A DNA stretch of 64,000 nt from Fibrobacterota bacterium (GTDB lineage: Bacteria; Fibrobacterota; Fibrobacteria; UBA11236), in assembly GCA_019509785.1 (NCBI GenBank), contig JAEKLQ010000023.1:62001-126000 (forward strand), written 5' to 3'. This document shows positions 21,470 through 44,999 of the stretch, piece after piece; the stretch's first letter is position 1, and each line of letters starts with the position of its first letter. The notes beneath the pieces were generated by a model that had not been told where the DNA came from, did not search any database, and saw nothing but the letters and a program-made list of their open reading frames with translations. The position numbers and the translations under genes were made by a program.

Positions 21470-21516
21470 CAGATTCAAATTAGGTTTTTAACAGATTCTA
21501 AAGTAAGGTGGTCCGA

Positions 21517-22056
21517 ATGCGACCGATGAACTCACTCCCGGCGGCAGCCGGTCTCCTTCTCGTCCTCGCTACGGGATCATTCTCGGCGCCCATCCACTCG
21601 GAAACCTCCGTAGGCGGGCACGGGGGGTATTGGACCGTGCCGGCTACTTATGATCCCTGGGCCCCCGGGTGGATCGGCCACCGCGGGCATCGTTCGCCTG
21701 GATTGGCTCCGCGGGACAGGGGGCTTGCGAAAGACCATGGCGGCTATGGGGCGGCGAACCTCCCCTTCGGGCTGGGAAGAATGGATGAAGGCTACCCGAT
21801 CCCGTCGCGGCTTTGCGGAGGCGCGGTCGGTACGGGCTTGTCGCAGTATCCGTTAGAGGGCCCTGATTCGGAGACGCCGGACTTGGACGTGACACAGCCA
21901 GGCGATGACGGATCGGATGCGCGGATTGCCGCCACCGCGGACTTGGACCGGAACGCGAACCCTATCCCGGCAGTACCCGAGCCGGGATCTTTGGCGATGC
22001 TGGGGGCGGGAGCGTTAGGCCTTTTGGCTGCGCGCGGACTGCTCAAGGATCAATAA
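21517..22056 (+). CDS. PEP-CTERM sorting-domain protein
   Basis: A 179-residue secreted protein with a signal peptide (AAAGLLLVLATGSFSA) and a Gly/His/Pro-rich middle of no recognised fold. The end is a PEP-CTERM tail: VPEP, a hydrophobic helix (SLAMLGAGALGLLA) and a short basic segment ARGLLKDQ. Such tails are cut and possibly linked to a carrier by exosortases during export of the matching exopolysaccharide. It is the only PEP-CTERM protein I see in the window. ATG 21517 has AAGGTGG 6 bases upstream; a GTG at 21508 is in frame. Confidence 0.85.
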   Translation: MRPMNSLPAAAGLLLVLATGSFSAPIHSETSVGGHGGYWTVPATYDPWAPGWIGHRGHRSPGLAPRDRGLAKDHGGYGAANLPFGLGRMDEGYPIPSRLCGGAVGTGLSQYPLEGPDSETPDLDVTQPGDDGSDARIAATADLDRNANPIPAVPEPGSLAMLGAGALGLLAARGLLKDQ

Positions 22057-24257: not shown

Positions 24258-25301
24258 TCAAGGCAGGAAACGGTTCAGGAAAGGGCCGGCGAGCTTGGAG
24301 GTCCAGAGCGGTTGGCGGGACCAGATATCCAGCAACCGGGCGAGCTTGGGGTTGGATGGGTTGAAAGTGGGCAGCTCGCTGCGGGTGTTGAAGATGAATT
24401 GGAACGGCAAGGGTTGCGGCTCGAAACCCATGTTCTTCTTGAAGTCGAAGGATCCGCTGCCGCGCCGGCTTTTGCCGAAGTCGAATCGCTTGCATCCCCT
24501 CTTCAGGCCGTGGCACATGAGCGCGTAATACATGTAATTGTTGGCGCCGGTGGAATTGGATTCCGGAAGGGAGCCGGAGAAGTAGGGGTTACAGATGTCG
24601 CGGAAGTAGAAGTTCATCACGCCGGCCACCGCCTTGCCCTTCTGGAGGACGAATAGGATGTCGGCCTTTTCGCCCATCGCTTCCATGATGGCGCGGAAGA
24701 AGGATTTGGGGAAAACGGGCGTCCCCAGCTTCTTGAGATTCACGGCATGCAGATGCCACAACAGATCGACGTCGCGATTGACGACGTAAGCGAGGCCATG
24801 GTTCTGGATGGCCTTGCGCACCGTGGCCCGCGACTTGCGCGGAATGGATTCCAGGCAGGCCTCTTCGGTATCGGGGAGGGGCTTGGAGAATTGCACGTTG
24901 AGATCGGAAGTGGGCAAGTCCAGCCCCGAAGCCACCGTGTTGCGAAGATGGACCATGCCCGCGCCCTCCTTCCGCGCCTCTTCCAGGCAGGCGTCGTGGA
25001 GCTGACGCGCCACGGCCGCATCGTCGGCCAGGACGCCCCCGTAGGCGGTGAAGGGCAAGGAGTACAGGCTTTTCTTTCCCGAAAGGCCGCGCACCCGGTA
25101 CACGCTCACCAATCCGCGGATGCGCCCGTCCTCTTTCACCGCGAAGTGATGGTAGGGACGCCGGTAACTACGGTCCAGGATTTCCAGCCACGTGGTAGAG
25201 TGGAAAACGGTGCCGCCCGCATGGCCGGCCACATAAGCGTCCCACGCGGCGGCGTCATTGCCGCTAAGAGGGGATTTGGGAGTCCAGGTCTGGATGGGCA
25301 A
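24258..25301 (-). CDS. FemAB family XrtA/PEP-CTERM-associated protein
   Basis: A 347-residue protein matching the XrtA-associated FemAB family (TIGR03019) along its length: WDAYVAGHAGGTVFHSTTW, SLPFTAYGGVLADD, then CLESIPRKSRATVRKAI, NLKKLGTPVFPKSFFRA, NYMYYALM and FDFGKSRRGSGSFDFKKNMG. These proteins are required for exopolysaccharide-linked functions in XrtA loci and have the fold of aminoacyl or acyl transferases. The start is probably the TTG at 25301 (GAGGA upstream), where homology begins; the long upstream frame is non-coding or antisense to asnB. It precedes the sugar transferase by two bases. Confidence 0.87.
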   Translation of the reverse strand: MPIQTWTPKSPLSGNDAAAWDAYVAGHAGGTVFHSTTWLEILDRSYRRPYHHFAVKEDGRIRGLVSVYRVRGLSGKKSLYSLPFTAYGGVLADDAAVARQLHDACLEEARKEGAGMVHLRNTVASGLDLPTSDLNVQFSKPLPDTEEACLESIPRKSRATVRKAIQNHGLAYVVNRDVDLLWHLHAVNLKKLGTPVFPKSFFRAIMEAMGEKADILFVLQKGKAVAGVMNFYFRDICNPYFSGSLPESNSTGANNYMYYALMCHGLKRGCKRFDFGKSRRGSGSFDFKKNMGFEPQPLPFQFIFNTRSELPTFNPSNPKLARLLDIWSRQPLWTSKLAGPFLNRFLP

Positions 25302-25421
25302 GCGTCCTCGGATTTCGGAAGTAAGGAAATTGAATAATTGACAAGCGTTCGGGAAAGGGCTCCGCGGGTTTCCGCGCCTATTGTTTATCTTTGGTTGTCC
25401 CGTCCCGGAGGTTGATTTTCT

Positions 25422-27341
25422 ATGTGCGGAATCGCCGGATTCGTCTATCCCGACAGGCGCCCTCCCGATCCCGAGGTCTTGAGGGCGATGACCCGCGCCC
25501 TCATCCATCGCGGCCCGGACGAGGAAGGCTACCATGCCGAGCCCGGGATTGCCCTGGGCCAGCGGCGCTTGTCCATTATCGACCTGGCCGGCGGCCGTCA
25601 ACCCATCTACAACGAGGATGGTACCATTGCCGTGGTCTTCAACGGGGAAATCTTCGATTACGTCGAGATCCGGGCCGAGCTGGAGGCGCTGGGCCACCGC
25701 TTCAAGACCAAGACGGATACCGAGGTCATCGTCCATGGCTACGAGGAATGGGGCCTGGATTTCCCCAACCATCTCAACGGCCAATTCGCCATCGCCGTCT
25801 GGGACGAGCCTAAGCGCCGCCTGATCCTGGCGCGCGACCGGGTGGGCATCCGGCCCCTCTTCCATGCCACCGCTCCGGACGGAGCCCTCCTGTTCGCCTC
25901 CGAAATGAAGGCGTTGTTCCGCTATCCCGGCCTTAATGCGGAAATGGATCCCCGCGGCCTGGGGCAAATCTTCACCTTCTGGGCCAACATCCCGCCCCGC
26001 ACCGTATTCAAAGGAGTCTCGGAACTACCTCCCGGCCACGTGCTGGTCGCGGAAGCGGGATCGATGCGCATCCACGCCTATTGGAAGCACCGTTTCCCCG
26101 ATCGCGGCGGCTATGAGGATCACCCGGAATCGTGGTGGATCGAGCGCCTGCGCGCCTTGCTGCACGATGCGACCGCCTTGCAACTCCGCGCGGACGTGCC
26201 GGTCGGCTCCTACCTGAGCGGGGGCCTGGATTCCTCCATCATCGCCTCCTTGGTGAAGCGCCACCATAATCCCGGCCTCACCACCTTTTCCGTCGGCTTC
26301 GCCGATCCGGCCTACGACGAGCGGGCCTACCAGAAGCAGATGGCGGAGTTCCTCGGCACGGATCACCATATCATGGAGGTCGATTACGCCGATATCGGCG
26401 AAGCCTTTTCCGACGTGGTCCGCTTCGCGGAAAAACCGATGACGCGTACGGCCCCCGCCCCGTTGATGTCGCTTTCGGGTCTGGTACGCAAGCACGGCAT
26501 GAAGGTGGTCCTGACCGGGGAAGGGGCGGACGAGATCTTCGGCGGCTACAATATCTTCCGGGAGGATAAGATCCGCCGTTTCTGGGCGCGCAGCCCGGAA
26601 GCGGTCTGGCGCTCCCTGCCGCTTTCGGGCCTATACGGGTACGTGGCGAAGAACGCCGCGGCCGGCGCCTTCTGGCGCCAGTTCTTTAAGCGCGGCCTCA
26701 CCGACGTCGATCATCCTTATTACTCGCATCTGATCCGCTGGCGCAATACCGGTTGGATCAAGGGCCTGTTCGCTCCCGCCTTCCGCGAAAGCCTGGGGAC
26801 GGAGGAGGAACTGATCGCCGATCTGGACGCCTACGTCGATCCCGAGATGCGCCGCTGGCATCCGCTCTGCCGCGCGCAATACCTGGAGATGGCGGTATTC
26901 ATGTCGGGCTATCTGCTCTGCTCGCAAGGCGACCGCATGCTGATGGCGCATTCGGTGGAAGGGCGCTTCCCTTTCCTCGACCATCGCCTGATCGAATTCG
27001 CGGCCACCATCCCGCCCAAGTACAAGGTGAAGACCTTGACCGAGAAGTACATCCTCAAGCAGGCCTACGCCGACGTGCTGCCCCCCGCCATCGTGAATCG
27101 GCCCAAGCATCCCTACCGGGCCCCGATCAGCCGTTGCTTTTCCGATCCGGGCAAGAACCTGGCCGCCTCGCTATTGACCCCGGAGGCGCTCCAGGCCACG
27201 GGCTATTTCGACCCGCAAGCGGCGACGCGGCTTCTGGACAAGGCCCGTCAGAGCGAAAGCGGCCATCTCGGCGAACGCGAAGAGATGGGGGTGGTGGCCA
27301 TGGCCTCCACCCAATTGCTGCACCATCATTTTTTGTCCTAA
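25422..27341 (+). CDS. asnB: Asparagine synthase (glutamine-hydrolysing), copy 1
   Basis: A 639-residue two-domain amidotransferase. The N-terminal glutaminase domain has Cys2 (MCGIAGFV) and HRGPDEEGYH. The synthetase domain has the ATP-pyrophosphatase loop SGGLDSS (residues 265-271) and LTGEGADEIFGGYNIF. It uses ATP and glutamine nitrogen to amidate an acid. In XrtA loci such enzymes probably modify sugars or the acyl substituent rather than free aspartate. The start is backed by GGAGGT about 10 bases upstream. It is divergent from the FemAB gene, sharing a 120-bp intergenic region. Confidence 0.9.
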   Translation: MCGIAGFVYPDRRPPDPEVLRAMTRALIHRGPDEEGYHAEPGIALGQRRLSIIDLAGGRQPIYNEDGTIAVVFNGEIFDYVEIRAELEALGHRFKTKTDTEVIVHGYEEWGLDFPNHLNGQFAIAVWDEPKRRLILARDRVGIRPLFHATAPDGALLFASEMKALFRYPGLNAEMDPRGLGQIFTFWANIPPRTVFKGVSELPPGHVLVAEAGSMRIHAYWKHRFPDRGGYEDHPESWWIERLRALLHDATALQLRADVPVGSYLSGGLDSSIIASLVKRHHNPGLTTFSVGFADPAYDERAYQKQMAEFLGTDHHIMEVDYADIGEAFSDVVRFAEKPMTRTAPAPLMSLSGLVRKHGMKVVLTGEGADEIFGGYNIFREDKIRRFWARSPEAVWRSLPLSGLYGYVAKNAAAGAFWRQFFKRGLTDVDHPYYSHLIRWRNTGWIKGLFAPAFRESLGTEEELIADLDAYVDPEMRRWHPLCRAQYLEMAVFMSGYLLCSQGDRMLMAHSVEGRFPFLDHRLIEFAATIPPKYKVKTLTEKYILKQAYADVLPPAIVNRPKHPYRAPISRCFSDPGKNLAASLLTPEALQATGYFDPQAATRLLDKARQSESGHLGEREEMGVVAMASTQLLHHHFLS

Positions 27342-27399: not shown

Positions 27400-28326
27400 C
27401 TAAGCCGATCTGCGCGCCATGAGCGCCCGCACGGCCCCCGCCTCGTCGCAGGCGGTTTCCACCAGATCGTAGTCGGAGGAGCGGCGCAATTGCTTGGCCA
27501 TCGGTTCGCCTTGGCCCAATCCGGCTTCGAAACAAAGCCAGCCGCCGGGCTTCAGGAAGCGCGGGGCCTGCTTGATCAGCTTCATCAGGATGGATACCCC
27601 GAAAGGGCCGCCGTCGAAAGCCATGGAGGGCTCGCGGGCGATCGCGTTTGGAAGATCGGGCACCTTGGCGGAAGAGATGTACGGAGGGTTGCAGGCGACC
27701 AGATCGGCGCTGCCCTGGAAGCGTTCCTCTTCGAAAGGGGAGAGCAAATCGCCGACCCGGAACTCCACCCGGAGGCCCGTCCCGTCCCCCCCGCGGCCCG
27801 CACCCGTAACCTCCAGGTTACGCCGGGCGAGGCCGACGGCCTCGGGGGAAAGATCGGAGGCGAAGATGCGGGCGCGCGGTTCGCCCGCCGCGATGGCCAG
27901 CGCCACGTTGCCGCTGCCGGTGCAGGGTTCGAGCACCAGCAATTCCCGGCCGGCCATGGCCTTCAGTTTGCCTAAGGCGGCGCGCGCCAGGATTTCCGTT
28001 TCCTTGCGGGCGATGAGGGCCTCGGGCCCGGCCAAAAGCTCCAGGCCCAGGAAGTCCTGCCGGCCGGTAAGGTGGGCCAGGGGCTCGCCCGCGCGCTTGC
28101 GCTCGAACAGGGCCGAGAGGCGAGCCTGGGCCGCGTCGTCGAGAGGGGGCAAGGGCAGGGTGGCCGCGCGCACCGCCGAGGCGGGGCTTCCCGCGGCGGC
28201 CAGCCACAAGGCCTTCAAAACCGTTTCCGCTGTTTCCTCGGGCATGTCAGGGGCCGGGGACCAAAAGGATTGCAGCTCGGAAAGGCGGGCCTCGGCTGCC
28301 GCATCGAAGCCGGAAAGGTCGGTCAT
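27400..28326 (-). CDS. prmC: PrmC/HemK-family protein N5-glutamine methyltransferase
   Basis: A 308-residue SAM-dependent methyltransferase. Near the middle it has LTGRQDFLGLELLAG, the conserved link between the helical N-domain and the catalytic domain, then LEPCTGSGNVALAIA for SAM binding and the active-site NPPY motif (ACNPPYISS). PrmC methylates the GGQ glutamine of release factors. Its first codons overlap the stop of the AMP ligase by four bases (ATGA), so it is translated from the ligase transcript. A role within the polysaccharide locus is possible. Release-factor methylation is the family default, but prfA, its usual neighbour, is absent. Confidence 0.8.
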   Translation of the reverse strand: MTDLSGFDAAAEARLSELQSFWSPAPDMPEETAETVLKALWLAAAGSPASAVRAATLPLPPLDDAAQARLSALFERKRAGEPLAHLTGRQDFLGLELLAGPEALIARKETEILARAALGKLKAMAGRELLVLEPCTGSGNVALAIAAGEPRARIFASDLSPEAVGLARRNLEVTGAGRGGDGTGLRVEFRVGDLLSPFEEERFQGSADLVACNPPYISSAKVPDLPNAIAREPSMAFDGGPFGVSILMKLIKQAPRFLKPGGWLCFEAGLGQGEPMAKQLRRSSDYDLVETACDEAGAVRALMARRSA

Positions 28327-29879
28327 AGCGGCTCCCGGGACAATTCCTTCTTGCGGATTTTCCCCGTGGCGGTTTTAGGCAACTCCGGCAGGAAGATCAC
28401 TTCTTTGGGTACCATGAAATTCTCCAGGCGCGCCAGGCAATGGGCCTTGATCTCCTTGTCGGAAAGCGCGGCGCCTTCTTCCAAGGCCAGGTAGGCGCGG
28501 ATGGCTTCGCCCATGAGCGCGTCGCGGACGCCCACCACGGCGGCCTCGCGCACCCCGGGAATCCCGTGTAGGCAATTCTCCACCTCGATGGGGCTCACCT
28601 TCTCGCCGCGGCTCTTGATGATATCGTCGCTGCGGCCCACGAAGTAGAGGAAGCCTTCCGCGTCCATGCGGAAGAAATCCTGCGTGCAAAGCACGCGTTC
28701 GCCCGGCAGCTTCCCCGGTTTCAGCATCTCCGCGGATAGATCGGGACGGTTGAGGTATCCGAGCATCACGTGGGGGCCGCGCACGTACAGGACGCCGGTT
28801 TCGCCGGGCGGCACGGGCTTGCCGTCCTCGGAGAGCAGGAAGACTTCCGTGCCCGGGATGGCTTTCCCGACCGATTCGGGCTTGACGTCGATCAACTCGG
28901 GCTCCAGATAACACACCCGCTTGCATTCGGTAAGGCCGTACATGCGGAAGATGAGGGCATTGGGGAAGATCTCGCGCAACCTCGGCACGATGTCGGCCGG
29001 CAGGGCCGCCGCCGTGTTGGTGACGCGCTCCACCGAAGGGAAGCAAAGGGGCTTGCGCGCGTGCATTCCCAAAAGGGTCATGTAGACGGTGGGCACCCCG
29101 GGGAAGACGGTGACCCCTTCGGACTGCACCCGGTTCAGGATCTGGGCGGGATAGGTGAAGGAACGCTCCAGCACGAGCGTGGCGCCCAGGCGCATGGCCA
29201 TCAGCAATTGGTAGAGGCCGTAGTCGAAGGCGAGAGGCAGGACGTTCAGGATGCGATCGGTGTCGCGCAAGCGCAAATATTCTATTAGACTCCCGGCGGT
29301 GAATGTCATGGCCTGGTGGGTCATCATCACGCCCTTGGGATTGCCGGTACTGCCCGAGGTATAGATGAGGGCGGCCAGATCCAGGGGGATGATCTGGCTC
29401 GGCAACTTCCCGGCAGGCGTAGCGACAGCCGAATCGAAAGCGATCAAGGGGCGCGGGCATGCGGCCGGAAGGGTTCCCGAAGCGATGACCGATTGGATCG
29501 AAGGCGCGTCCGCCAGGGCTTCGACGAAAGCGGTTGCGATGTGCCCGTCGCTGAAGAGGAACCGGGCGCCGCAATCGTTGAGGATGAAGCGCAGCTTATC
29601 GGGTTTGGTTTGCGGGTTCACCACCACGAAGGTTCCGCCCGCCATCAGGATCGCGAAAATCGATACGACGCAGGGCCAGGTATTATCCATGTAGATGGCC
29701 ACGCGATCCCCGCGTTGTAAACCTTCCCGACACAAGAAGGAGGCCAGGTTACAAGCTTGCTCCCTCAAATTGTCGTAGCGGTATGGCTTTCCTTCCACAA
29801 CCAAAGCGGTTTTCGAAGGAAAGCGCGTACTTGAGTCAAGCAGGCTGTCGTGCAATAATCTCTGGTATCGGTGATCCAT
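28323..29879 (-). CDS. AMP-dependent acyl ligase, copy 1
   Basis: A 518-residue ANL-superfamily enzyme. The AMP-binding loop is LIYTSGSTGNPKGVMMTHQA. Later motifs are MYGLTECKR, the hinge FVGRSDDIIKSRGEKVSP and the catalytic lysine in KTATGKIRKKEL at the C-terminus. It adenylates a carboxylic acid and passes it to a thiol. The acyl carrier protein gene at 29977 is divergent with its start only 98 bases away, so the carrier is the likely acceptor. The acid is unknown. It is upstream of prmC in a two-gene operon. Confidence 0.87.
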   Translation of the reverse strand: MDHRYQRLLHDSLLDSSTRFPSKTALVVEGKPYRYDNLREQACNLASFLCREGLQRGDRVAIYMDNTWPCVVSIFAILMAGGTFVVVNPQTKPDKLRFILNDCGARFLFSDGHIATAFVEALADAPSIQSVIASGTLPAACPRPLIAFDSAVATPAGKLPSQIIPLDLAALIYTSGSTGNPKGVMMTHQAMTFTAGSLIEYLRLRDTDRILNVLPLAFDYGLYQLLMAMRLGATLVLERSFTYPAQILNRVQSEGVTVFPGVPTVYMTLLGMHARKPLCFPSVERVTNTAAALPADIVPRLREIFPNALIFRMYGLTECKRVCYLEPELIDVKPESVGKAIPGTEVFLLSEDGKPVPPGETGVLYVRGPHVMLGYLNRPDLSAEMLKPGKLPGERVLCTQDFFRMDAEGFLYFVGRSDDIIKSRGEKVSPIEVENCLHGIPGVREAAVVGVRDALMGEAIRAYLALEEGAALSDKEIKAHCLARLENFMVPKEVIFLPELPKTATGKIRKKELSREPL

Positions 29880-29976
29880 TTGGCTGAATCTCTCCCTGGT
29901 GAACCGGTAAAATTAGCTTTATCTTGATCCGGTCGAATAATTGTGTAAGTAGTAAATCTAAAAGAGGTAAGTCGTC

Positions 29977-30243
29977 ATGGGTTTCACATCCGATCAGGTC
30001 AAGTCCGCTTTGCGGGATTTCGTGGCCGGGAATTTCCTGCTCGGGAAGGACGCCAAGACGATTGGCGATCAGGATTCGTTCCTGGACAGCGGCTTGGTGG
30101 ATTCGACAGGAATCCTGGAGTTCGTCGGATTCCTGGAAGAAAAGTGGAACATCTCCGTCGCCGACGAAGAATTGTTGCCCGAGAATTTCGACACTCTGCA
30201 GAACCTGACCGCGTTCGTACTCCGCAAAGCCGCGAAAGCCTGA
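29977..30243 (+). CDS. Acyl carrier protein, copy 1
   Basis: An 88-residue single-domain carrier protein with the phosphopantetheine site VDSTGILEF (Ser43) in the usual position at the start of helix 2, preceded by FLDSGL. The overall acidic composition and four-helix length fit. It would hold an acyl or aminoacyl group delivered by the divergent AMP ligase. An AGAGGT ribosome site is 8 bases before the ATG. The NadE-like gene begins 13 bases after the stop, and the genes from 29977 to about 35368 look like one transcript. Confidence 0.88.
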   Translation: MGFTSDQVKSALRDFVAGNFLLGKDAKTIGDQDSFLDSGLVDSTGILEFVGFLEEKWNISVADEELLPENFDTLQNLTAFVLRKAAKA

Positions 30244-30256
30244 GCGGGCGCAGCAC

Positions 30257-31249
30257 ATGCCGGCCCCATTTTCCCCCGCGCTTTTAGTCCTCGACTACCC
30301 ATCCGAAGCCGATCGCATCGCGGCGACCCTGCGCGATTATCTCCTCTCCGTGCGCCGCAAGGGCGTCGTAATCGGGCTTTCCGGAGGCATCGACAGTTCG
30401 GTTACCCTGGCCCTTTGCGTCCGCGCCATCGGCGCCGAACGCGTCTTCGGCCTGCATATGCCCGAGCGCGATTCCTCCGAAGACACCCTGGACCTGAGCC
30501 AGTCGGTCGCTCGCCATTTCAGCGTCGCTTCCGAGGTGGAAGACATCACCGCGCTCCTCGATGCCGCCGGATGTTACCGTCGCCGCGATGCCGCCATCCG
30601 CACCGTGATTCCCGAATACGCGGCCGATTGGAAATGCAAAATCGTGCTCTCCGGCGGGGTCTCCGGAGGCGGCCTCAACGTTTTCCACGTGGTGGCGCAA
30701 GCCCCCGACGGCACCCAGACCAAGAAACGACTGCCCCTAGAGGCGTATCTGGGAGTGGTGGCCGCCAGCAATTTCAAGCAGCGCATCCGCAAGATGCTGG
30801 AATATTACCATGCCGATCGGCTCAACTACGCCACCACGGGCACGCCGAACCGCCTCGAATACGATCAGGGTTTCTTCGTGAAGCAAGGCGACGGCGCGGC
30901 CGATATCAAGCCCATCGCCCATCTGTATAAGACGCAAGTCTATGCGCTGGCCGAATACCTGAACGTACCCGAAGAAATCCGCCGCCGGCCGCCCACCACC
31001 GATACCTATTCCCTCCCCCAGGGCCAGGACGAATTCTATTTCGCGCTCCCTTACGCCCAGATGGATTTGTGCCTTCTGGGCAAGAACCGCGGGTATGCGC
31101 CCGCGGAAGTGGCTCCCTCGGTCGGGATTACCGCCGAGCAAGTGGAACGTGTCTATAAGGATATCGATGCCAAGCGCAGCGCGACGCGCTACCTGCATCT
31201 TGGCCCCAGGCTGGTCGAGGCCGTTACCGAGACGGGAGCGAAGGCATGA
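30257..31249 (+). CDS. nadE: NadE-family amidating enzyme (NAD synthase-like)
   Basis: A 330-residue ATP-pyrophosphatase-fold enzyme with the loop SGGIDSS (residues 42-48) and the NadE-type C-terminal half: GTPNRLEYDQGFFVKQGDGA, ADIKPIAHLYKTQVYALAEYL and RPPTTDTYSLPQGQDEFYF. True NAD synthases have GTxNxSE here, whereas this copy reads GTPNRLE. It also carries an extra segment near residues 120-165. It lacks a glutaminase domain, so it would use ammonia. Being between an acyl carrier protein and a methyltransferase gene, it may amidate a sugar or carrier-bound acid. NAD synthesis cannot be excluded. Confidence 0.75.
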   Translation: MPAPFSPALLVLDYPSEADRIAATLRDYLLSVRRKGVVIGLSGGIDSSVTLALCVRAIGAERVFGLHMPERDSSEDTLDLSQSVARHFSVASEVEDITALLDAAGCYRRRDAAIRTVIPEYAADWKCKIVLSGGVSGGGLNVFHVVAQAPDGTQTKKRLPLEAYLGVVAASNFKQRIRKMLEYYHADRLNYATTGTPNRLEYDQGFFVKQGDGAADIKPIAHLYKTQVYALAEYLNVPEEIRRRPPTTDTYSLPQGQDEFYFALPYAQMDLCLLGKNRGYAPAEVAPSVGITAEQVERVYKDIDAKRSATRYLHLGPRLVEAVTETGAKA

Positions 31250-32058
31250 CATCTGCGGCCAAGCCGTTCGATCGCGAAGAGTATTGGGCGGAACGTTACC
31301 GCGTCATCGATCTCACCAAATCGGGCCATATCGATTTGCCCGTCGCCTATAACAAATGGCTTTACCGCCGCAAGGTGGAATGCCTAATGCGTGATTTGCG
31401 CCGCGCCGGCTTCCACCCGAAAGGCGCCTCGGTACTTGAAATCGCGACCGGCACCGGAGTCTACGTGGAGGCTTGGAAGGGCGCCGGCGTGGCCCGCCTG
31501 GTCGGCATCGACATCAGCCAAGCCGCCACGGATGCCCTACGCGTACGTTTCCCCGCTTACTCCTTCCACAAGCGGGATCTGGGCGAGCCGGGGTTGGCCA
31601 AGCTCACCGGCACGGGCTTCGACTTGGTCACGGCGGTGGACATGGTCTACCATATCGTGGAGGACGAACGGTTTCCGGTAGCCCTCGCGAATATGGCCGA
31701 AGCGGTAAAGCCGGGAGGGCTGCTCGCCATCCACGACGTGTTCCCCCATCGCGAGGAGCTCGATTTCGGTTATCTCAAGCTGCGGACTTTGGAAACCTTC
31801 GTCCGCGCATTGGATAAGGCCGGGTTCGACATCGTCTCGCGCACGCCCACTTTCTTCTTCGCGGTGCAAACCCACGACCACCTTTCCGAGCAAGCGCAAA
31901 AACGCATGGACGCCATTTGGGACCGCTTTACGGCGCGCCTCATCCAACGGGCTCCGGGCGCCGCCGGGGCCTTCACCTATGCTATCGACCGCGCGCTGGG
32001 CATGGTCCTGCGCGAAGGCCCGTCCTTCGAGATGCTCGTCTGCCGGAGGCGCGGCTGA
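31246..32058 (+). CDS. Class I SAM-dependent methyltransferase
   Basis: A 270-residue methyltransferase with the SAM-binding motif VLEIATGTGVYVEAW near residue 65, motif II region LVGIDISQAATDALR and the DLVTAVDMVYHIVEDERF segment typical of class I enzymes acting on small molecules or sugars. The first codons overlap the NadE-like stop by four bases (ATGA), and its own stop overlaps the next ATG by one base. That places it firmly in the operon. The substrate is unknown; O- or N-methylation of the polysaccharide unit is the likely use. Confidence 0.8.
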   Translation: MTSAAKPFDREEYWAERYRVIDLTKSGHIDLPVAYNKWLYRRKVECLMRDLRRAGFHPKGASVLEIATGTGVYVEAWKGAGVARLVGIDISQAATDALRVRFPAYSFHKRDLGEPGLAKLTGTGFDLVTAVDMVYHIVEDERFPVALANMAEAVKPGGLLAIHDVFPHREELDFGYLKLRTLETFVRALDKAGFDIVSRTPTFFFAVQTHDHLSEQAQKRMDAIWDRFTARLIQRAPGAAGAFTYAIDRALGMVLREGPSFEMLVCRRRG

Positions 32059-32660
32059 TGAAGAATTGGTATTGGACGATGCGCTCGGAAATCCCCGAGT
32101 TCTTCTTCTGGTTCCTGAACCGCCTCCCCGGGAAGACGGGCATCAAGCTGCGCAAGGTGTTCCTGCCGCGGTGGCTGGGGGCTTGCGGAACCAATCCGGT
32201 CTTCCACACCAACATCCGCATCACCAATCCCGAACGCCTGAAAATCGGGGATTCCTGCGCCTTCGCCGACGGGACCTTCTTCACCGCGGGCGGCGGCATC
32301 ACCATCGGCAATTTCGTGGCGACGGGTCCCGACGTCAAGATCTGGTCGGTGAACCATCGCTTCGAGGATCCCGATATCCCTTGGATGGAACAAGGATACG
32401 AGCAAAACCCCGTGGTCATCGAGGACGACGTGTGGCTGGGCGCCTCCGTCTTCGTGAAGCCAGGCGTTCGCATCGGCAAGGGAGCGATCATTTCCGCCGG
32501 CACCGTGCTTTCGAAATCGGTACCGGCCTTTTCCATCGTGGCGGGAAATCCCGGACGCGTGGTGGGTTGGCGCAAGCGGCCCGAGGGCGGGGGGTCCCCG
32601 CTGGAAAAGCCCGGCATCGGCCAGAAGCTCGCCGCAGCGGAATCCCAGGCGGAGGAATGA
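32058..32660 (+). CDS. Hexapeptide-repeat acetyltransferase
   Basis: A 200-residue left-handed beta-helix acetyltransferase of the NodL/LacA/maa type. Repeats are visible as IRITNPERLKIGDSC, ITIGNFVATGPDVKIW, VVIEDDVWLGASVFVKPG and VRIGKGAIISAGTVLSKSV, ending in IVAGNPGRVVG. The catalytic histidine is expected in SVNHRFEDP. The frame runs upstream, but the ATG at 32058 overlapping the methyltransferase stop (TGATG) is the natural start. It probably O-acetylates a sugar in the repeat unit using acetyl-CoA. Confidence 0.82.
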   Translation: MKNWYWTMRSEIPEFFFWFLNRLPGKTGIKLRKVFLPRWLGACGTNPVFHTNIRITNPERLKIGDSCAFADGTFFTAGGGITIGNFVATGPDVKIWSVNHRFEDPDIPWMEQGYEQNPVVIEDDVWLGASVFVKPGVRIGKGAIISAGTVLSKSVPAFSIVAGNPGRVVGWRKRPEGGGSPLEKPGIGQKLAAAESQAEE

Positions 32661-32663: not shown

Positions 32664-33548
32664 ATGCGCAGAATCATGGCGCTCGGAATCGCATTGCTCG
32701 CCCTGTGTTCCTGCGACAAGGAAACCGGTAGCGCGTCCGTGACCGCTTTCGTCCCGGATCCCGGATTGGCCGCCGATCTGGCCAAGACATCAGCCCTGCG
32801 CGTTTTCTTCGGCCATCAAAGCGTGGGCGGCAACATCGTTGACGGGCTGGAAGAGTTGCGTTCCCAAGCGGGCGATACTGCCTTCCGCGTGATTCACGGC
32901 ACCGGGGATTCCGCCTTGCCCCCGGCCTTCTTCGCCGAGGCCAAGGTGGGCAGGAACGGCGATCCCATCGGGAAACTCTCCGACTTCAAGCTTCGGTTGG
33001 ACGGGCCCTTGCGGGGCAAGGTGAACGTGGCGCTCGTCAAGATCTGCTACGTGGATCTGGCGGCCGGCGCCGGAGTCGATCCGGACTCCCTGTTCGGGGC
33101 GTACCGCCGGACCGTACTCGATCTGGAAACGGAACATCCCGGCCTCGTCGTGGTTCCGGTTACCTCGCCGTTGACCGTTCCCGATTTCGGGGCGCGCGGT
33201 AGGCTCGACGCCCTCAAAGGGATGCTTGGCCGCTGGCTCGGCCGGCCCGACGACAACGCGCGCCGCGCGCGCTTCAACGCGCGCATACGGGATAGCTTCC
33301 GCGATCGGATCATCTTCGACCTGGCCGCGATCGAATCGACCCGTCCCGACGGGACCCTCGTCCGTTACGGCCGCGGGGGATTGGTGGAGGCTCTAGCGCG
33401 GGAATACTCTTCCGATGGCGGCCATCTCAATGCCTTGGGGCGCAAGGTCGCCGCGCGCGCATTGTTGCGTACCTTGGCGCGCGTCCCGTCCCGCCCGGTG
33501 CCCGTTGGCGACGCGGGAGCCATTGGCGGGCCGCGGCCCAATTCTTAG
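32664..33548 (+). CDS. SGNH/GDSL-like lipoprotein hydrolase
   Basis: A 294-residue protein with a short signal peptide and lipobox-like LALCSC, so it is probably a lipoprotein. Near residue 50, FFGHQSVGGNIVDG could supply the block I serine, and SSDGGHLNALG near the C-terminus supplies the Asp-x2-His block V of SGNH hydrolases. The family removes or transfers O-acyl groups, which fits beside the acetyltransferase gene. The catalytic roles are inferred from motif order only. GGAGGA lies 8 bases before the ATG, and the gap from the previous gene is 3 bases. Confidence 0.6.
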   Translation: MRRIMALGIALLALCSCDKETGSASVTAFVPDPGLAADLAKTSALRVFFGHQSVGGNIVDGLEELRSQAGDTAFRVIHGTGDSALPPAFFAEAKVGRNGDPIGKLSDFKLRLDGPLRGKVNVALVKICYVDLAAGAGVDPDSLFGAYRRTVLDLETEHPGLVVVPVTSPLTVPDFGARGRLDALKGMLGRWLGRPDDNARRARFNARIRDSFRDRIIFDLAAIESTRPDGTLVRYGRGGLVEALAREYSSDGGHLNALGRKVAARALLRTLARVPSRPVPVGDAGAIGGPRPNS

Positions 33549-34267: not shown

Positions 34268-35368
34268 ATGAAAAAGGTCATCCTTGTCTGCGGGGCGCGC
34301 CCGAACTTCATGAAAGTCTCGCCGATCATCAAGGCGATGAACGCTTCCGGCAAACTCAAACCCTACCTGGTGCATACCGGCCAGCATTACGACGAGAAAA
34401 TGTCGAAGTCATTCTTCGATCTATTGCATATCCCCAAACCCGACGTGGACCTGGGAGTGGGATCGGGCAGCCATGCCGAGCAGACGGGCAAGGTGATGGT
34501 GGAGTTCGAGAAGGTTTGCCAGCGGGAAAAGCCGGATTTGGTGATCGTGGTCGGCGACGTCAATTCGACCATGGCTTGCACCATTTCCGCGAAGAAGCTT
34601 TGGATTCCCGTCGCCCACGTCGAGGCCGGCCTGCGGTCATGGGACATGAAAATGCCCGAAGAGGTGAACCGCGTCGTCACCGATGTGCTTTGCGATCTGT
34701 TCTTCACCACCGATCCCGATGCCAACGAGAACTTGCGGCGTTCCGGCGCGCCCGCCGACCGCATCCTCTTCGCCGGCAACGTGATGATCGATACCTTGCT
34801 GGACAACGTGGAGCATTCCAAGGACAATCCCATCCTCGAAACGATGGGGGTTAAGCCGAAGGAATATTGCTTCCTGACCATGCATCGCCCTAGCAACGTG
34901 GACGATAAGGAAGTGCTATCGGGCCTGTTGGGCGCTTTCGATCATATCCAAAAGCGGATCCCCATCGTATTCCCGGCCCATCCCCGCACGATGAAGATGA
35001 TCCGCGAGTTCGGGCTGGGGAGCCGGTTCGAGGCCATGTCCGGCATCAAGGTGTGCGAACCCCTGGATTACCACCAGATGCTGAAGCTGAATAAGAATTC
35101 GCGCTTCGCGCTCACCGATTCCGGCGGACTCCAGGAAGAAACCACCGTCCTGGGCATTCCTTGCATCACCATGCGCAACAACACCGAACGGCCGGTGACG
35201 GTGTCCATCGGGACCAGCGAAGTGGTGGGCAACGATCCCGCGAAGATCATCGACGCCGTCGATCGGATCCTCGCGGGCCGGTGGAAACAGGGCGGCACCC
35301 CGGAAGGCTGGGACGGCAAAGCCGGAGAGCGCATCGTGCGCTTGGTCGAAAACTACCTCGGCGCGTGA
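34268..35368 (+). CDS. wecB: UDP-N-acetylglucosamine 2-epimerase (non-hydrolysing)
   Basis: A 366-residue GT-B fold epimerase converting UDP-GlcNAc to UDP-ManNAc. Signature segments are VCGARPNFMKVSPII at the N-terminus, HTGQHYDEKMS, VVGDVNSTMACT, HVEAGLRSWDMKMPEEVNR and, in the C-domain, FALTDSGGLQEET and RNNTERPVTV. Active-site acids and His are at the expected places. With the dehydrogenase at 2987-4282 it could give UDP-ManNAc uronic acid. It is 13 bases after the export gene and lacks an obvious Shine-Dalgarno sequence, so it probably depends on translation from upstream. Confidence 0.95.
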   Translation: MKKVILVCGARPNFMKVSPIIKAMNASGKLKPYLVHTGQHYDEKMSKSFFDLLHIPKPDVDLGVGSGSHAEQTGKVMVEFEKVCQREKPDLVIVVGDVNSTMACTISAKKLWIPVAHVEAGLRSWDMKMPEEVNRVVTDVLCDLFFTTDPDANENLRRSGAPADRILFAGNVMIDTLLDNVEHSKDNPILETMGVKPKEYCFLTMHRPSNVDDKEVLSGLLGAFDHIQKRIPIVFPAHPRTMKMIREFGLGSRFEAMSGIKVCEPLDYHQMLKLNKNSRFALTDSGGLQEETTVLGIPCITMRNNTERPVTVSIGTSEVVGNDPAKIIDAVDRILAGRWKQGGTPEGWDGKAGERIVRLVENYLGA

Positions 35369-40056: not shown

Positions 40057-41931
40057 ATGTGCGGCATCACCGGATACGTGCTCCGTTCGGGGTCGGCGGA
40101 AAGCAAGCGGCAGGTGCTCGAGGCCATGTGCGGGCTGATTTCCTATCGCGGCCCGGACGGCTCCGGCGTGCTGATCCAGGGCCAGGCCGCGCTGGGGCAT
40201 CGCCGGCTTAGCATCATCGATTTGGCCGGCGGCGCGCAGCCCATGGCCACCCCGGACGGATCGCTCACCGTGGTATTCAACGGCGAGATCTACAACTTCC
40301 CCGAACTCAAGCGGGAATTGATCGATAAAGGCCATTCCTTCCGCACCAACTCCGATACGGAAGTGCTCTTGCACGGCTACGCCGCCTACGGAACCAAGCT
40401 GCTGGCGAAGCTGAACGGCATGTTCGCCTTCGCGTTGTGGGACGACAAGCGCAAGGTGCTCTTCGCCGCGCGCGATCGCATGGGCAAGAAGCCGTTCTAC
40501 TACCATGCCACCGGCGAACGGATCATTTTCGCCTCGGAGATGAAATCGCTACTGGCCGAACCGGAAGTGCCGCGCCGCCTGGACCCGGAGGCCATCGACG
40601 ATTTCTTCTCGTTCGGCTACATACCGGCGCCGCGCACCGCTTTCCTGGATGTGCAGAAACTGCGTCCGGGCCATTTCCTGCTTTGGGAAGACGGGAAAAC
40701 CCGCGTCGAGAAGTACTGGGACGTGCGTTATGCGCCCGACCCCGATTGCAAAACCGAAAACGATTACGTCGACAAGCTGGAAACCCTGCTGCAGGCGGCC
40801 GTGAAGCGCCGCCTCATCAGCGACGTCCCGCTCGGCGCGTTCCTGAGCGGCGGCCTCGATTCCAGCGTCATCGTGGGCCTGATGGCGCGCGTCTCCGGCG
40901 AGCCCGTGCGCACCTTCACGATCGGCTTCGAGGAGAAGGAATTCAACGAGCTGGAGGACGCGCGCGTCGTGTCCGATGCCTTCGGCACCCTGCATCGCGA
41001 GCATATCGTGCGGCCCGACGCCTTGTCCATCCTGCCGTCCCTGGTATGGCATTTCGACGAGCCCTTCGCGGACTCTTCCGCCGTGCCCACCTATTACGTA
41101 TGCCAGGCGGCCCGCCGCGAGGTGACGGTGATCCTTTCCGGCGACGGCGGCGACGAGTTGTTCGCCGGCTACAACGCCTATTTGGGGCGGGATCGTTACG
41201 ATAAGTACAAAGCCATCCCGGCCCCCCTGCGCCGCATGGTCTGCGGGACGGCCGGGCGCCTATTGCCCTGGAACGCGCCGGGCCGCAACCTGATGCGCCG
41301 CTTGGGGCACCTGGAGGCTTTCGAACGCGGCGACATCCCCGAGTTATTCCCGCCCATCAAGGAAGCCCTGTACGCGCGCGAATGGGGCCGCAAGCTGACC
41401 GAGCGCGATCCCGCCTCCGTCTTCGCTTATTGGGAGGGCGCCCCGGCGTCCGGCCTCAGCCGCCTGCAATACCTGGATACCAAGGTCTATCTGCCCGAGG
41501 ACATCCTCACCAAGGTCGATCGCATGTCCATGGCCAACTCCCTGGAAACGCGTGCGCCCCTGCTGGACTATACCGTGGTCGAATTCGCCGCTTCCATCCC
41601 GCCCGCATTGCAGATCAAGGACGGCAAGGGGAAGTACATCCTCCGCAAATTGGCCGGGCGCTTTTTGACGCCCCGGGTATTGGCCAAGAAGAAGCAGGGA
41701 TTCGCGATCCCCCGCGAGAAGTGGTTCCAGGGCGCCTTGCGCGATTTCGCGCGCGATATTTTGACCAGCCCCCGCTTCCGGCAGCGGGGATTCTTCCGCC
41801 AGGACATGGTCGAAATGATGCTGCGCGAGCATGATCGGGGATCCCGCGACTACAGCATCTGGATCTGGAGCCTTATCAATTTCGAACTGTGGAACCAGGC
41901 CTTCCTGGACGGCGATACCCGGAAAATCTGA
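40057..41931 (+). CDS. XrtA-associated amidotransferase 1 (asparagine synthase type), copy 2
   Basis: A 624-residue asparagine-synthase family enzyme that fits exosortase A system amidotransferase 1 (TIGR03108). It has Cys2 (MCGITGYV), YRGPDGSGV, HRRLSIIDLAGG and NGEIYNF in the glutaminase domain, and SGGLDSS (residues 262-268), EPFADSSAVPTYYVCQ and LSGDGGDELFAGYNAY in the synthetase domain. It is first in a tight seven-gene run ending with the decarboxylase at 48845. In that context it probably amidates or condenses a carrier-bound acid or a uronic sugar. Confidence 0.9.
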   Translation: MCGITGYVLRSGSAESKRQVLEAMCGLISYRGPDGSGVLIQGQAALGHRRLSIIDLAGGAQPMATPDGSLTVVFNGEIYNFPELKRELIDKGHSFRTNSDTEVLLHGYAAYGTKLLAKLNGMFAFALWDDKRKVLFAARDRMGKKPFYYHATGERIIFASEMKSLLAEPEVPRRLDPEAIDDFFSFGYIPAPRTAFLDVQKLRPGHFLLWEDGKTRVEKYWDVRYAPDPDCKTENDYVDKLETLLQAAVKRRLISDVPLGAFLSGGLDSSVIVGLMARVSGEPVRTFTIGFEEKEFNELEDARVVSDAFGTLHREHIVRPDALSILPSLVWHFDEPFADSSAVPTYYVCQAARREVTVILSGDGGDELFAGYNAYLGRDRYDKYKAIPAPLRRMVCGTAGRLLPWNAPGRNLMRRLGHLEAFERGDIPELFPPIKEALYAREWGRKLTERDPASVFAYWEGAPASGLSRLQYLDTKVYLPEDILTKVDRMSMANSLETRAPLLDYTVVEFAASIPPALQIKDGKGKYILRKLAGRFLTPRVLAKKKQGFAIPREKWFQGALRDFARDILTSPRFRQRGFFRQDMVEMMLREHDRGSRDYSIWIWSLINFELWNQAFLDGDTRKI

Positions 41932-41948
41932 GCGGAGAGCGAGCGCGT

Positions 41949-43919
41949 ATGGGAGCAATTTGCGTGATAGTCAATCGCCGGGAAAGCGAGCCGGCGCGCA
42001 CCGATGTCGTGGACGCCATGCTCCGGGAAGCCGTGGCCGCCCGCAGCGGGAATCCGGCCCAGCCGCTTCCCGCGCCCGCCAGCCGGGCCTTTTCCAACGT
42101 GGCGGCCGGCGCCATCGACGCCCTCAAGGGGGATTCCGGGCAATGCCTGTACGAGGACGAAGCCGTGCTTGTGGCTTGCGACGCGGAGATTTACAACGGC
42201 AAGGAATTGGCCGGTAGCGCCGGCGTCCCCGAGAACGCCGGCGAAGCGGCCTTGATCGCGGCTTTGTACCGGCGGCATGGGGAATCGTGGTTCGAAAAGG
42301 TGGCCGGCATTTACGGGGTCTTCATATACGACAAGGGCAAGCGCAAGGGATTGGCCTTTTCCGATCGCCTGGGCGTGCGGCCCTTGATCGTCCACGAGGA
42401 CGACGAGCGCATCGTGGTGGCCACGTATTTGGCCTCTCTGGCCGGATTGCCGGGCTTCCAGGCTACGCTCGATCACCAAGCCGTGTGCAGCTACCTGTTC
42501 ATGGAGATGATCCCCACGCCTTTCACCATCTACCGTTCGGCGCGCAAGCTGGAAGGCGGCCATGTCTTGCGCATTTCCGGCGGGCGGACGGAAACGGCGC
42601 GCGTGTGGAACATGAAATACCCCGAGCCGAAGCTGGCGGACGAAGGCGAAATGATCGCCGGCATGCGGCGCCTGATGCGGCAATCGGTGCAGCGCCAGGC
42701 CGCCCTCGGGGTGAAGACCCCGGAAGAACTCGGATCCTTTCTCAGCGGCGGAACCGATTCCAGCCTCATCGCCGGCTTGCTCAGCGAATTGAACCCGGGC
42801 CGGGCGAAAACCTTCACCATCGGTTTCGAAGAGCCCGGCTACGATGAAATGGAATTTTCCCGCATCGCCAGCAACCGCTTCAAGACCAAGGCCGACGAAT
42901 ACTACGTGACCCGGGACGATATTGTCGACGCCTTGCCCCTGATCGTGCGCGCTTTCGACGAGCCTTTCGCCAACTCCTCCGTCATCCCCACCTATTTCTG
43001 CGCCCGGCGCGCGCGCGAATCCGGCGTGCGCGTGATCATGGGAGGGGACGGGGGCGACGAGATTTTCGGAGGCAACTCCCGCTACCGCGATTATTACCAG
43101 GATTTCCACCGCTTCAATCCCGCCGTGGAAATGGCGATGTCGCTGGCGGTGGGGGCGACCCCCAAGTGGGCCCAGGTAGGCCCCATGCGCAAGGTGGCCA
43201 ATTACCTGGCGCGTAAGCATGCGCCTTTGCACGAGCGCATCCACGCGTATGATTTGTCCTTCTATTTCGGCAAACGCGAGAACATCTTCGCCGCCGGTTT
43301 CCTGGCCGGCCAGGGCCAGTTCCTGAACGCCCAGGAAATCGCGCGCCGCATCCTGGAAGGCGCCGAGACCACGGATGAATTGGATCGTTACCTGTATCAC
43401 GATTTGAAGAATACCTTGATGGACAACGATCTCCGCAAGGTGAACACCATGACCGAGCTGGCGGGAGTGCAGGTGCGCTATCCCTTCCTCGATACCGAAC
43501 TGGTGGAGTTCACCGGGCTTATCCCCTCCAACCTCAAGGTGAAGGATGGCGCGCTCCGCTACCTGTACAAGGAAGCCTTCAAGGATATCCTGCCGCTGGA
43601 GATCATCAACAAGAAGAAGCACGGCTTCGGGCTGCCGGTGGTGCAGTGGATGTTCCGCAAGGGACGATTCAACGACATGCTGCGCGACGCGCTTTTCGAT
43701 GGGCGCCTCAAGGCGCGCGGCATCTTCCACGACGCCTTCGTGGACGGCCTGTACAAGCGGGCCCAGGCGGACAAGACGGCCTATTTCGGATACTTCCTTT
43801 ATTACATTTTTTTCCTGGAACTCTGGCTGCGGGAACATGTCGACGGGAGCGCCAGCCGCGCATCGTCGCGATTCTCCGCCGCCGCCGGGGTTCCGGGCTC
43901 ATCGGGAAGGGACCTATGA
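41949..43919 (+). CDS. Asparagine synthase homologue without N-terminal Cys, copy 3
   Basis: A 656-residue protein with both asparagine-synthase domains, but starting MGAICVIVNRRE. The catalytic Cys2 of the glutaminase domain is Gly, and the first Cys is residue 5. The glutaminase half is also diverged: the usual HRGPD and RLSIID motifs are not visible, though EIYNGKELAG and SDRLGVRPL remain. The synthetase domain is intact, with SGGTDSS (265-271), EPFANSSVIPTYFCA and MGGDGGDEIFGGN. It likely cannot use glutamine and may instead join another amine, as beta-lactam synthetase does. Its stop overlaps the acyl carrier protein start by four bases. Confidence 0.85.
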   Translation: MGAICVIVNRRESEPARTDVVDAMLREAVAARSGNPAQPLPAPASRAFSNVAAGAIDALKGDSGQCLYEDEAVLVACDAEIYNGKELAGSAGVPENAGEAALIAALYRRHGESWFEKVAGIYGVFIYDKGKRKGLAFSDRLGVRPLIVHEDDERIVVATYLASLAGLPGFQATLDHQAVCSYLFMEMIPTPFTIYRSARKLEGGHVLRISGGRTETARVWNMKYPEPKLADEGEMIAGMRRLMRQSVQRQAALGVKTPEELGSFLSGGTDSSLIAGLLSELNPGRAKTFTIGFEEPGYDEMEFSRIASNRFKTKADEYYVTRDDIVDALPLIVRAFDEPFANSSVIPTYFCARRARESGVRVIMGGDGGDEIFGGNSRYRDYYQDFHRFNPAVEMAMSLAVGATPKWAQVGPMRKVANYLARKHAPLHERIHAYDLSFYFGKRENIFAAGFLAGQGQFLNAQEIARRILEGAETTDELDRYLYHDLKNTLMDNDLRKVNTMTELAGVQVRYPFLDTELVEFTGLIPSNLKVKDGALRYLYKEAFKDILPLEIINKKKHGFGLPVVQWMFRKGRFNDMLRDALFDGRLKARGIFHDAFVDGLYKRAQADKTAYFGYFLYYIFFLELWLREHVDGSASRASSRFSAAAGVPGSSGRDL

Positions 43920-44161
43920 CGGAAGACATCAAGGAAAGCGTACGGAAGATCGTGGCCCGCAGCGTGGGCGGCGAATACCGGGACAAGCCCATCCCCGACG
44001 GCATGAAGTTGATCGGAAATCTGCTCGACTCCATGGCCGTGAACAGCTTGATCGTGGCGCTGGAGGAGAATTTCGGATTCGCCTTCGAGGACGAAGAACT
44101 TTCCGCCGAGTCCTTCGAAACCGTCGAGTCGCTGGCGGAACTCGTGAAAAGAAAGCTCTAA
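43916..44161 (+). CDS. Acyl carrier protein, copy 2 (XrtA cassette)
   Basis: An 81-residue carrier protein with the attachment site NLLDSMAVNSL (Ser39) and typical flanking helices (SLIVALEENFGFAFEDEEL). It begins inside the stop of copy 3 (ATGA) and the next gene follows after 7 bases. In exosortase A loci, a carrier protein in this place goes with two hydrolases, an AMP ligase and a PLP decarboxylase, all present here in the same order. It likely tethers the ligase product during modification. Confidence 0.87.
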   Translation: MTEDIKESVRKIVARSVGGEYRDKPIPDGMKLIGNLLDSMAVNSLIVALEENFGFAFEDEELSAESFETVESLAELVKRKL

Positions 44162-44168
44162 GGGCGGG

Positions 44169-44999
44169 ATGACGGGATCCAGCGAAGAGATGTTTTTCTT
44201 CGACGGCGTCGGCGGAAAAAGGCTGCTCGGCTTTTTCCACCCGGCGGCGGGGCCCGCCCGGCGGGGCGGCGTGGTGTATTGCCATCCCTTCGCGGAAGAG
44301 AAGAACCAAAGCCATGCGGTCATCGTCCGCACTGCGCGCGGCCTGGCCGCGGCCGGCATTCCCGTGCTGCGTTTCGATTTCAGCGGCTGCGGCGACAGCG
44401 AAGGCGATTTGCAGGATGCCTCCGCGGAGGATTGGGTGGCCGAAGTGGGTTGCGCGGCGGATTGGCTGCGGAAGCGCACCGGGAACGCGCGCGTGGGCCT
44501 GTGGGGTTTGCGGGCCGGCGCCAACCTGGCCGCCTTATATGCCGCCGGCCGCAGCGACGTGGCCTTCGCGGTCTTGTGGCAGCCCCTGCCCGATCTCAAA
44601 ACCTGCATGACCCAGTTCTTGCGGCAGAAGTTCAGCTCCGAACTCGCCGCCGGCAACGCCGAAGGCTTTTCCGTGAAGGGCCTGGTCAAGCGGCTGGAGG
44701 CGGGCGAAACCCTCGATGTCATGGGCTATCCGGTGACTCGCCGCCTGTATGAAAGCTTCGCGACGAAAACGCCTCCGTTATCCGCCTGCGAATTCCCCTT
44801 CCCCCTTTGCCTGGCCGCCATCACCGAAGCGGATGCGCCCCCGGACGCCCTCAAGCGGATGGCCGAGGGCTTGCGCGCCTCCAATCGGCCCGCGCCTTTG
44901 CAGCATGCCCGCGAAGTGCCTTTTTGGGATCGGTATTGGCGCTGGGAAGCCCCTTCCCTGCCGCAGCTCACGTCCGGCTGGATAGCCTCCGTAGCCTAG
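44169..44999 (+). CDS. Exosortase A system-associated hydrolase 2
   Basis: A 276-residue alpha/beta-hydrolase-fold protein of the XrtA hydrolase 2 group (TIGR03101-like): VVYCHPFAEEKNQSH, FDFSGCGDSEGDLQDAS and LWGLRAGANLAALYA. At the nucleophile elbow, where active hydrolases have G-x-S-x-G, this protein has G-L-R-A-G with Arg115. The C-terminal Asp/His pair is also not obvious. It may therefore bind rather than cleave, perhaps holding the carrier-bound product. It lies between the carrier protein and hydrolase 1 genes with gaps of 7 and 5 bases. Confidence 0.82.
   Translation: MTGSSEEMFFFDGVGGKRLLGFFHPAAGPARRGGVVYCHPFAEEKNQSHAVIVRTARGLAAAGIPVLRFDFSGCGDSEGDLQDASAEDWVAEVGCAADWLRKRTGNARVGLWGLRAGANLAALYAAGRSDVAFAVLWQPLPDLKTCMTQFLRQKFSSELAAGNAEGFSVKGLVKRLEAGETLDVMGYPVTRRLYESFATKTPPLSACEFPFPLCLAAITEADAPPDALKRMAEGLRASNRPAPLQHAREVPFWDRYWRWEAPSLPQLTSGWIASVA

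Follow-up and report, generated by a model that had tools for sequence, protein, structure and literature searches.

The NadE-like gene considered here lies in a 64,000-nucleotide stretch of DNA from a Fibrobacterota bacterium (class Fibrobacteria, UBA11236; assembly GCA_019509785.1, contig JAEKLQ010000023.1, positions 62,001 to 126,000 of the forward strand), hereafter the window, which is part of contig 23 of a 5.4 Mb genome. Its closest described relatives are the nicotinamide adenine dinucleotide (NAD) synthetases (NadE, PF02540), with which its product shares the fold, the SGGxDS loop and the metal- and ammonia-site residues. Within this family, the nicotinamide mononucleotide (NMN) synthetase of Francisella (3fiu), our top fold match, sets a precedent for a NadE homologue changing its substrate, although there the homologue serves an alternative route to NAD (De Ingeniis et al. 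2012, PMC3376133); the Francisella enzyme excepted, the available text of that study assigns no non-NAD role. NadE1 and NadE2, as presented in the available part of PMC7196632, are glutaminase-fused enzymes and fall outside the NF002048/PRK00876 subfamily to which the protein studied here belongs.

The genes around the NadE-like gene recall two further systems. The XrtA/PEP-CTERM module, which includes a TIGR03098 ligase, a TIGR03108 amidotransferase, a TIGR03019 FemAB protein and a TIGR03099 decarboxylase, resembles the ligase, acyl carrier protein (ACP) and AsnB-type amidotransferase found here. In the Wbp/Vim linking-sugar pathway, the AsnB-type enzyme WbpS converts a sugar uronate to the uronamide, and VimA, a TIGR03019 relative, determines the amino acid placed on the sugar (Veith et al. 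2020, PMC7468200). WbpS, the FemAB-like VimA, a deacetylase and a sugar dehydrogenase of that pathway are matched by counterparts in the window, whereas a ligase, an ACP and a NadE-like enzyme go unmentioned in the available sections of that paper. Asparagine synthases of the wbpS type have also been placed in a polysaccharide cluster (PMC3684757, available text), and the accessible portion of PMC1569441 contains no mention of ligase, carrier or amidotransferase terms. In the open-licence PMC literature, which covers few subscription papers, we found no description of the gene cassette reported below or of a role for the NF002048 NadE subfamily. AsnB-type amidation of surface sugars is already known.

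At the Fibrobacterota locus, the NadE-like gene is accompanied by three others, arranged as follows:

25422-27341, + strand: AsnB-type glutamine amidotransferase, cassette member (TIGR01536, 503 bits; cut-off 267)
28323-29879, - strand: ligase forming adenosine monophosphate (AMP), a divergent TIGR03098 relative, cassette member (PF00501, 305.7 bits)
29977-30243, + strand: ACP with a DST phosphopantetheine site, cassette member (PF00550, 25.5 bits; cut-off 20.8)
30257-31249, + strand: NadE-like protein of the NF002048/PRK00876 subfamily, proposed ATP-dependent amide synthetase
30563-30757, + strand: stretch coding for residues 103-167 of the NadE-like protein, holding a family-specific insertion of about 53 residues

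We favour, with moderate confidence, a reading in which ATP-dependent amide synthesis is the dedicated task of the NadE-like protein, as part of a four-gene cassette for surface-polysaccharide decoration, and the protein is not the main NAD synthetase. A first-pass annotation, made from the sequence without database searches, had reported a ligase, an ACP and a NadE-like gene between 28323 and 31249, and all three are there; the most frequent partner, the AsnB-type gene, lies outside that interval, and the four-gene cassette was missed. Its description of the ligase as divergent is borne out by the best NCBIfam match, TIGR03098, at 435.8 bits against a cut-off of 592.35.

We compared 84 loci, made up of the best 80 of at least 550 genome loci, three plasmid loci and the window, and searched for partners with the window proteins alone and then again with profiles built from their relatives. 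An AsnB-type gene was detected in 76 loci, a ligase in 75 and an ACP in 73; in the 48 loci whose flanks extend 8 kb or more in both directions, these numbers are 45, 46 and 45, with all three partners present in 41. The profile search of 20 stretches around ordinary NAD synthetases, taken from 20 genomes hand-picked among the same 80 and in three cases shorter than 13 kb, returned no ligase, no ACP and a single weak AsnB match (37 bits). AsnB-type amidotransferase, ACP, ligase and NadE-like protein thus form a conserved four-gene cassette. Its gene order is fluid, with 17 arrangements among the 59 loci that hold all four genes within 6 kb (A-C-L-N being the commonest, with 28), so the link between the genes is not that of one frozen block. 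The gene ending close to the projected NadE-like start was the ligase in 39/84 loci, the AsnB-type gene in 20/84 and the ACP gene in 7/84. All 67 AsnB members with a readable N-terminal RGPD motif have the N-terminal Cys, and nine more lack a readable motif. Gene fusion was considered as a proof of partnership and set aside, as the seven NadE-like frames longer than 420 residues contained no partner domain.

Judged from record titles, some of whose labels rest on metagenome bins, the cassette occurs in about twelve phyla: Fibrobacterota, Verrucomicrobiota, Planctomycetota, Desulfobacterota, Actinomycetota, Pseudomonadota, Acidobacteriota, Myxococcota, Nitrospirota, Armatimonadota, Omnitrophota and Gemmatimonadota. 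The nearest named relative locus (74% identity, among the best 80 of at least 550) carries a Fibrobacteria title. On a Nitratireductor plasmid (L132:3298-12981), the cassette lies beside genes for a Mu-type transposase, TniB and TniQ, a setting compatible with dissemination by mobile elements. The cassette of Sinorhizobium meliloti and S. medicae (L028:6167-15446) sits on a large plasmid, 1-3 kb upstream of minCDE. A rhizobial GNAT-like neighbour of 370 residues was weighed as a universal fifth member and rejected, having no significant BLAST match to its Azospirillum counterpart or to the FemAB proteins of the window.

The NadE-like protein scores 168.4 bits with PF02540 and falls within NF002048/PRK00876 (505.3 bits, cut-off 313, over residues 7-325 of 330); it also exceeds the TIGR00552 cut-off, and both NF002048 and TIGR00552 carry the name NAD(+) synthase. 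What separates it from the NAD(+) synthetase family are the insertion, the GTPNRLEYDQGFF and PPTTDTYS motifs, a Thr-Thr pair in the P2 loop, and its setting: AsnB, ACP and ligase genes regularly accompany it, and the genome encodes a further NAD synthetase elsewhere. The segment GTPNRLE, singled out by the first-pass annotation, occupies residues 195-201 and is conserved family-wide, with G, T, P, N and E invariant in 84/84 members; the usual GTxNxSE with which it had been contrasted is only an approximate description, since ordinary enzymes vary here (GTDHAAE in E. coli, CNANKAE in this genome's own NAD synthetase). An extra segment had likewise been noted and is real and found throughout the family, at about 53 residues and not 45: residues 103-167 face 12 residues of 2e18, the closest PDB sequence, and three short strands are modelled in this region (126-131, 143-148 and 154-158). 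The structural model as a whole (predicted local distance difference test score, pLDDT, 91.2; 54 sequences) has the NAD/NMN synthetase fold, and its top matches are tied: 3fiu_A (Z 28.3, root-mean-square deviation 2.6, 238 residues aligned), 2e18_A (28.3, 3.4, 252) and 1xng_B (28.1, 3.2, 252).

Residue comparison of the 84 family members with 21 ordinary enzymes (E. coli, the genome's own, and those of 19 of the 20 control loci, the remaining one having no profile match) revealed SGGxDS, E201, D212 and K225 to be invariant in both sets. N172 is kept in 83/84 NadE-like and 21/21 ordinary sequences, and R176 in 84/84 and 19/21. The P2 loop, in contrast, changes from P-[ST]-A-[DE]-L in ordinary enzymes to P-T-T-D-T, with Thr248 and Thr250 present in 84/84 family members at positions where Ala and Leu each occur in 19/21 ordinary enzymes. 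From motif and spacing, these threonines appear to equate with Ala573 and Leu575 of the human enzyme, which contact the nicotinic moiety and the AMP phosphate (PMC6946656, available text). As the catalytic set is kept and the P2 loop is altered, a change of substrate is likely, though not proven. The first-pass proposal of amidation in place of NAD synthesis is likely to be right, but the catalytic residues are retained, so the sequence alone leaves it unproven. The NadE-like group was monophyletic in a quick tree with flagged long branches, a result that is partly owed to the choice of rows.

A search of the genome for another nadE had been suggested as a check, and one was found on contig 27 (G000:C27, about 1.2-3.3 kb; L001:388-2490), where a 701-residue open frame contains CN_hydrolase and NAD_synthase domains and scores 104.5 bits with TIGR00552 (cut-off 63.65). 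This runs against the outcome, no other nadE, that the first-pass annotation had named as part of a refutation of its proposal. The NadE-like protein is therefore ruled out as the sole NAD synthetase of its genome, and with a separate enzyme present it can hardly be the cell's main one. Counted by eye, 79 of 80 relatives' genomes also have a further NAD synthetase match besides the NadE-like gene, the exception being an Armatimonadetes bin, and bins may be incomplete. The NF002048 cut-off was passed in 5/61 relatives' genomes, mostly of the same class, and all five also contain a long frame (673 to 814 residues, the size of glutamine-dependent enzymes) that matches at a lower score. The glutamine-dependent enzyme on contig 27 is itself very divergent, with a long tree branch and a score under the PRK13981 cut-off.

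The surroundings of the cassette in the window include the following:

24258-25250 (start approximate; 24261-25397 for the TIGR03019 match), - strand: FemAB-type transferase, candidate acyl/aminoacyl transferase (TIGR03019, 319.5 bits; cut-off 260.35)
27400-28326, - strand: prmC-like gene, between the AsnB-type and ligase genes
31246-32058, + strand: S-adenosylmethionine methyltransferase, overlapping the NadE-like stop by 4 nucleotides
32058-32660 (start approximate), + strand: hexapeptide acyltransferase (WcaF-like), occasional cassette neighbour, family in 25/84 loci
32664-33548, + strand: SGNH/GDSL-fold protein, occasional cassette neighbour, family in 16/84 loci, one match being short and weak
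34268-35368: WecB epimerase
about 43916-44161, + strand: ACP of the first (XrtA-type) module, for comparison
45989-47593, + strand: TIGR03098 ligase of the first module, for comparison (627.8 bits, over the cut-off of 592.35)
58694-59743: polysaccharide deacetylase

As the first-pass annotation had it, the window holds two ligase/carrier modules. The other one, at 40057-48845, is of the exosortase A type, with two AsnB-like proteins, an ACP, two hydrolases, a TIGR03098 ligase and a TIGR03099-like decarboxylase, and, unlike the cassette, it has no NadE-like gene. Its TIGR03100 hydrolase scores above cut-off and its TIGR03101-, TIGR03099- and TIGR03108-like proteins below, the last being the AsnB-like proteins at 40057 and 41889 (646.3 and 276.8 bits; cut-off 816.9). 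The cassette AsnB also stays under this TIGR03108 cut-off (470.4 bits), so that both it and the cassette ligase differ from XrtA members proper. Profiles built from the cassette separate the two sets of the window: 935 versus 551 and 269 bits for AsnB, 702 versus 520 for the ligase and 114 versus 29 for the ACP. An exosortase match occurs in 43/81 cassette genomes (24/41 and 19/40), 41 of them over cut-off, and in 1/14 reference genomes; the present genome has one as well (G000:C58, 188.7 bits). Exosortase is enriched and not required, and the idea that the cassette depends on one was accordingly dismissed. One carrier of the cassette, Shinella zoogloeoides ATCC 19623, reportedly lacks genes for PEP-CTERM proteins (PMC9012009, available text). 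A PEP-CTERM protein is encoded mid-locus in the window, at 21508-22056 (TIGR02595, 18.3 bits; cut-off 16).

Polysaccharide genes are often near. Using six marker families (two kinds of glycosyltransferase, an export protein, a deacetylase, a hexapeptide transferase and a Wzc-like ATPase), we detected at least one marker no more than 10 kb away in 35 of 47 full loci, the window left out, versus 4 of 20 controls; as the profiles themselves derive from families that recur near the cassette, this contrast flatters the test loci. In the window, both the FemAB protein (TIGR03019) and a glycosyltransferase (TIGR03087) at 23-25 kb score above cut-off, and a TviB-like UDP-GlcNAc 6-dehydrogenase at 2987-4282 (- strand) reaches 489.5 bits, below the TviB cut-off of 592 and above that of TIGR03026. 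The functional context drawn in the first-pass annotation survives in its tie to the ligase/carrier pair and to polysaccharide genes; the methyltransferase, a local addition found by phmmer in the window and one other locus (2/84), and the hexapeptide acetyltransferase (25/84) are not constant members.

Other neighbours were considered individually. The prmC-like gene, despite its place inside a polysaccharide region, is the genome's best PrmC match (178 bits, cut-off 199; next best 55), which makes it likelier to be a housekeeping release-factor enzyme, and it was rejected as the cassette's amide N-methyltransferase; PrmC-like genes do lie within 10 kb of 17/84 cassette loci, with one weak match in the 20 controls, which speaks against a housekeeping-only view. 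The product of 32664-33548, a putative lipoprotein of 294 residues, has no Pfam or NCBIfam match; its family shares FFGHQSVGxNI-, KxCYxD- and DGGHLN-like motifs across 14 aligned members, and its model (pLDDT 84.5) resembles SGNH/GDSL esterases and PatB-type O-acetyltransferases. A scan of viral contigs found nothing.

Counterparts of WbpS and VimA, a deacetylase and a nucleotide sugar dehydrogenase in the window lead us to place the cassette in a chemistry like that of the Wbp/Vim pathway, where the NadE-like enzyme would form a second amide. By the chemistry of its family, the ligase would adenylate a small carboxylic acid and load it onto the ACP. A separate transferase, here most likely the FemAB-type protein, would then pass the group to an amino sugar, following the Wbp/Vim model. 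The AsnB-type enzyme may amidate one carboxylate with glutamine, as WbpS does on a uronic acid, and the NadE-like enzyme, whose catalytic set is intact by sequence, would adenylate a second carboxylate for displacement of AMP by ammonia. The target of this last step is the least certain part of the scheme: our first choice is the free carboxyl of the group delivered by ligase and ACP, or of its nucleotide-bound precursor, followed by a sugar uronate. The more general proposal, that a NadE-fold family labelled NAD(+) synthase left NAD metabolism and amidates a carrier- or nucleotide-bound acid that decorates surface polysaccharides, from a mobile four-gene cassette present in about twelve phyla, we put forward tentatively, at close to an even chance.

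Several observations weigh against the proposed function. Sampling by best score over-represents near relatives, so the loci are not independent (20/84 are Hyphomicrobiales by title), and in 7 of the 48 full loci at least one partner falls below thresholds. Beyond the bias of the marker profiles, 12 of the 47 full loci have none of the six polysaccharide markers, and in S. medicae and S. meliloti no polysaccharide gene is directly adjacent to the four genes. Ligases of the cassette fall into more than one A4 motif class, with FDYGLYQ in 37/74, which weakens any claim of a single substrate; a reading of amino-acid specificity from the A4 Asp was dropped for this reason. The two ordinary enzymes (of 21) whose P2 loop lacks Ala and Leu are of the M. 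tuberculosis type, which makes NAD with another P2-loop sequence (PMC6946656, available text), so that the P2-loop argument is weak alone and the proposed function less sure. Finally, D212 and F206 correspond in position to Asp497 and Trp490 in the M. tuberculosis enzyme (numbering in the PDB chain is one higher); F206 retains an aromatic residue at the nicotinic-ring position, and a nicotinate-like substrate may still be accommodated.

Among the alternatives, a division of labour in which the NadE-like enzyme takes a nucleotide-linked uronic acid as its substrate (turning UDP-GlcNAcA into the uronamide, for example) and amidation of the acyl group falls to the AsnB-type enzyme seems unlikely, but survives best. 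A carboxylate carried on a nucleotide is what the NadE pocket is built to take, and the window encodes both the TviB-like dehydrogenase and the WecB epimerase; the known uronamide-forming enzyme of such loci is, however, AsnB-type (WbpS; PMC7468200, available text), and a cluster resembling nucleotide sugar dehydrogenases, judged by eye, was present in only seven neighbourhoods.

Also unlikely, to a similar degree, is a true NAD(+) or NMN synthase paralogue for special conditions, for instance one feeding the NAD-dependent sugar dehydrogenases and epimerases of polysaccharide loci. Retention of the fold, P-loop, metal-site and ammonia-site residues and ring-stacking aromatic is what such a paralogue would display, and the RefSeq name agrees with those of the two NAD(+) synthase models whose cut-offs are passed. 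Set against this are the regular presence of ligase, ACP and AsnB, none of them known to take part in NAD synthesis, the other NAD synthetase already present in 79/80 genomes, and the two P2-loop replacements by Thr in every family member.

We regard as improbable that the NadE-like enzyme converts a carbonyl to an amidine, or that it uses another amine in place of ammonia. Amidine formation from a carbonyl has reportedly been proposed for PP-loop enzymes of the PseA/WbpG type, whose adenylation chemistry is alike, and GMP synthase and LarE appear further down the fold list (Z about 15 to 16); by both fold (Z about 28) and sequence, NAD/NMN synthetases are nearest, and these place ammonia on a carboxylate. 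A chance meeting of unrelated genes in a large polysaccharide region, for which the richness of the window in such genes and the seemingly unrelated prmC-like gene could be cited, is very improbable and largely refuted by the neighbourhood counts (all three partners in 41/48 full loci, ligase or ACP in 0/20 controls) and by Sinorhizobium and Nitratireductor, where the four genes are together without directly adjacent polysaccharide genes.

If the NadE-like protein is indeed an amide synthetase of this cassette, then the names nadE and NAD(+) synthase would be wrong for probably hundreds of genes, one of them on Sinorhizobium meliloti pSymB, and metabolic models would be counting a second NAD synthetase that does not exist. 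It would also add to polysaccharide amidation a fold not tied to it in the literature searched, and the four genes would offer a shortlist for finding the product in a tractable strain.

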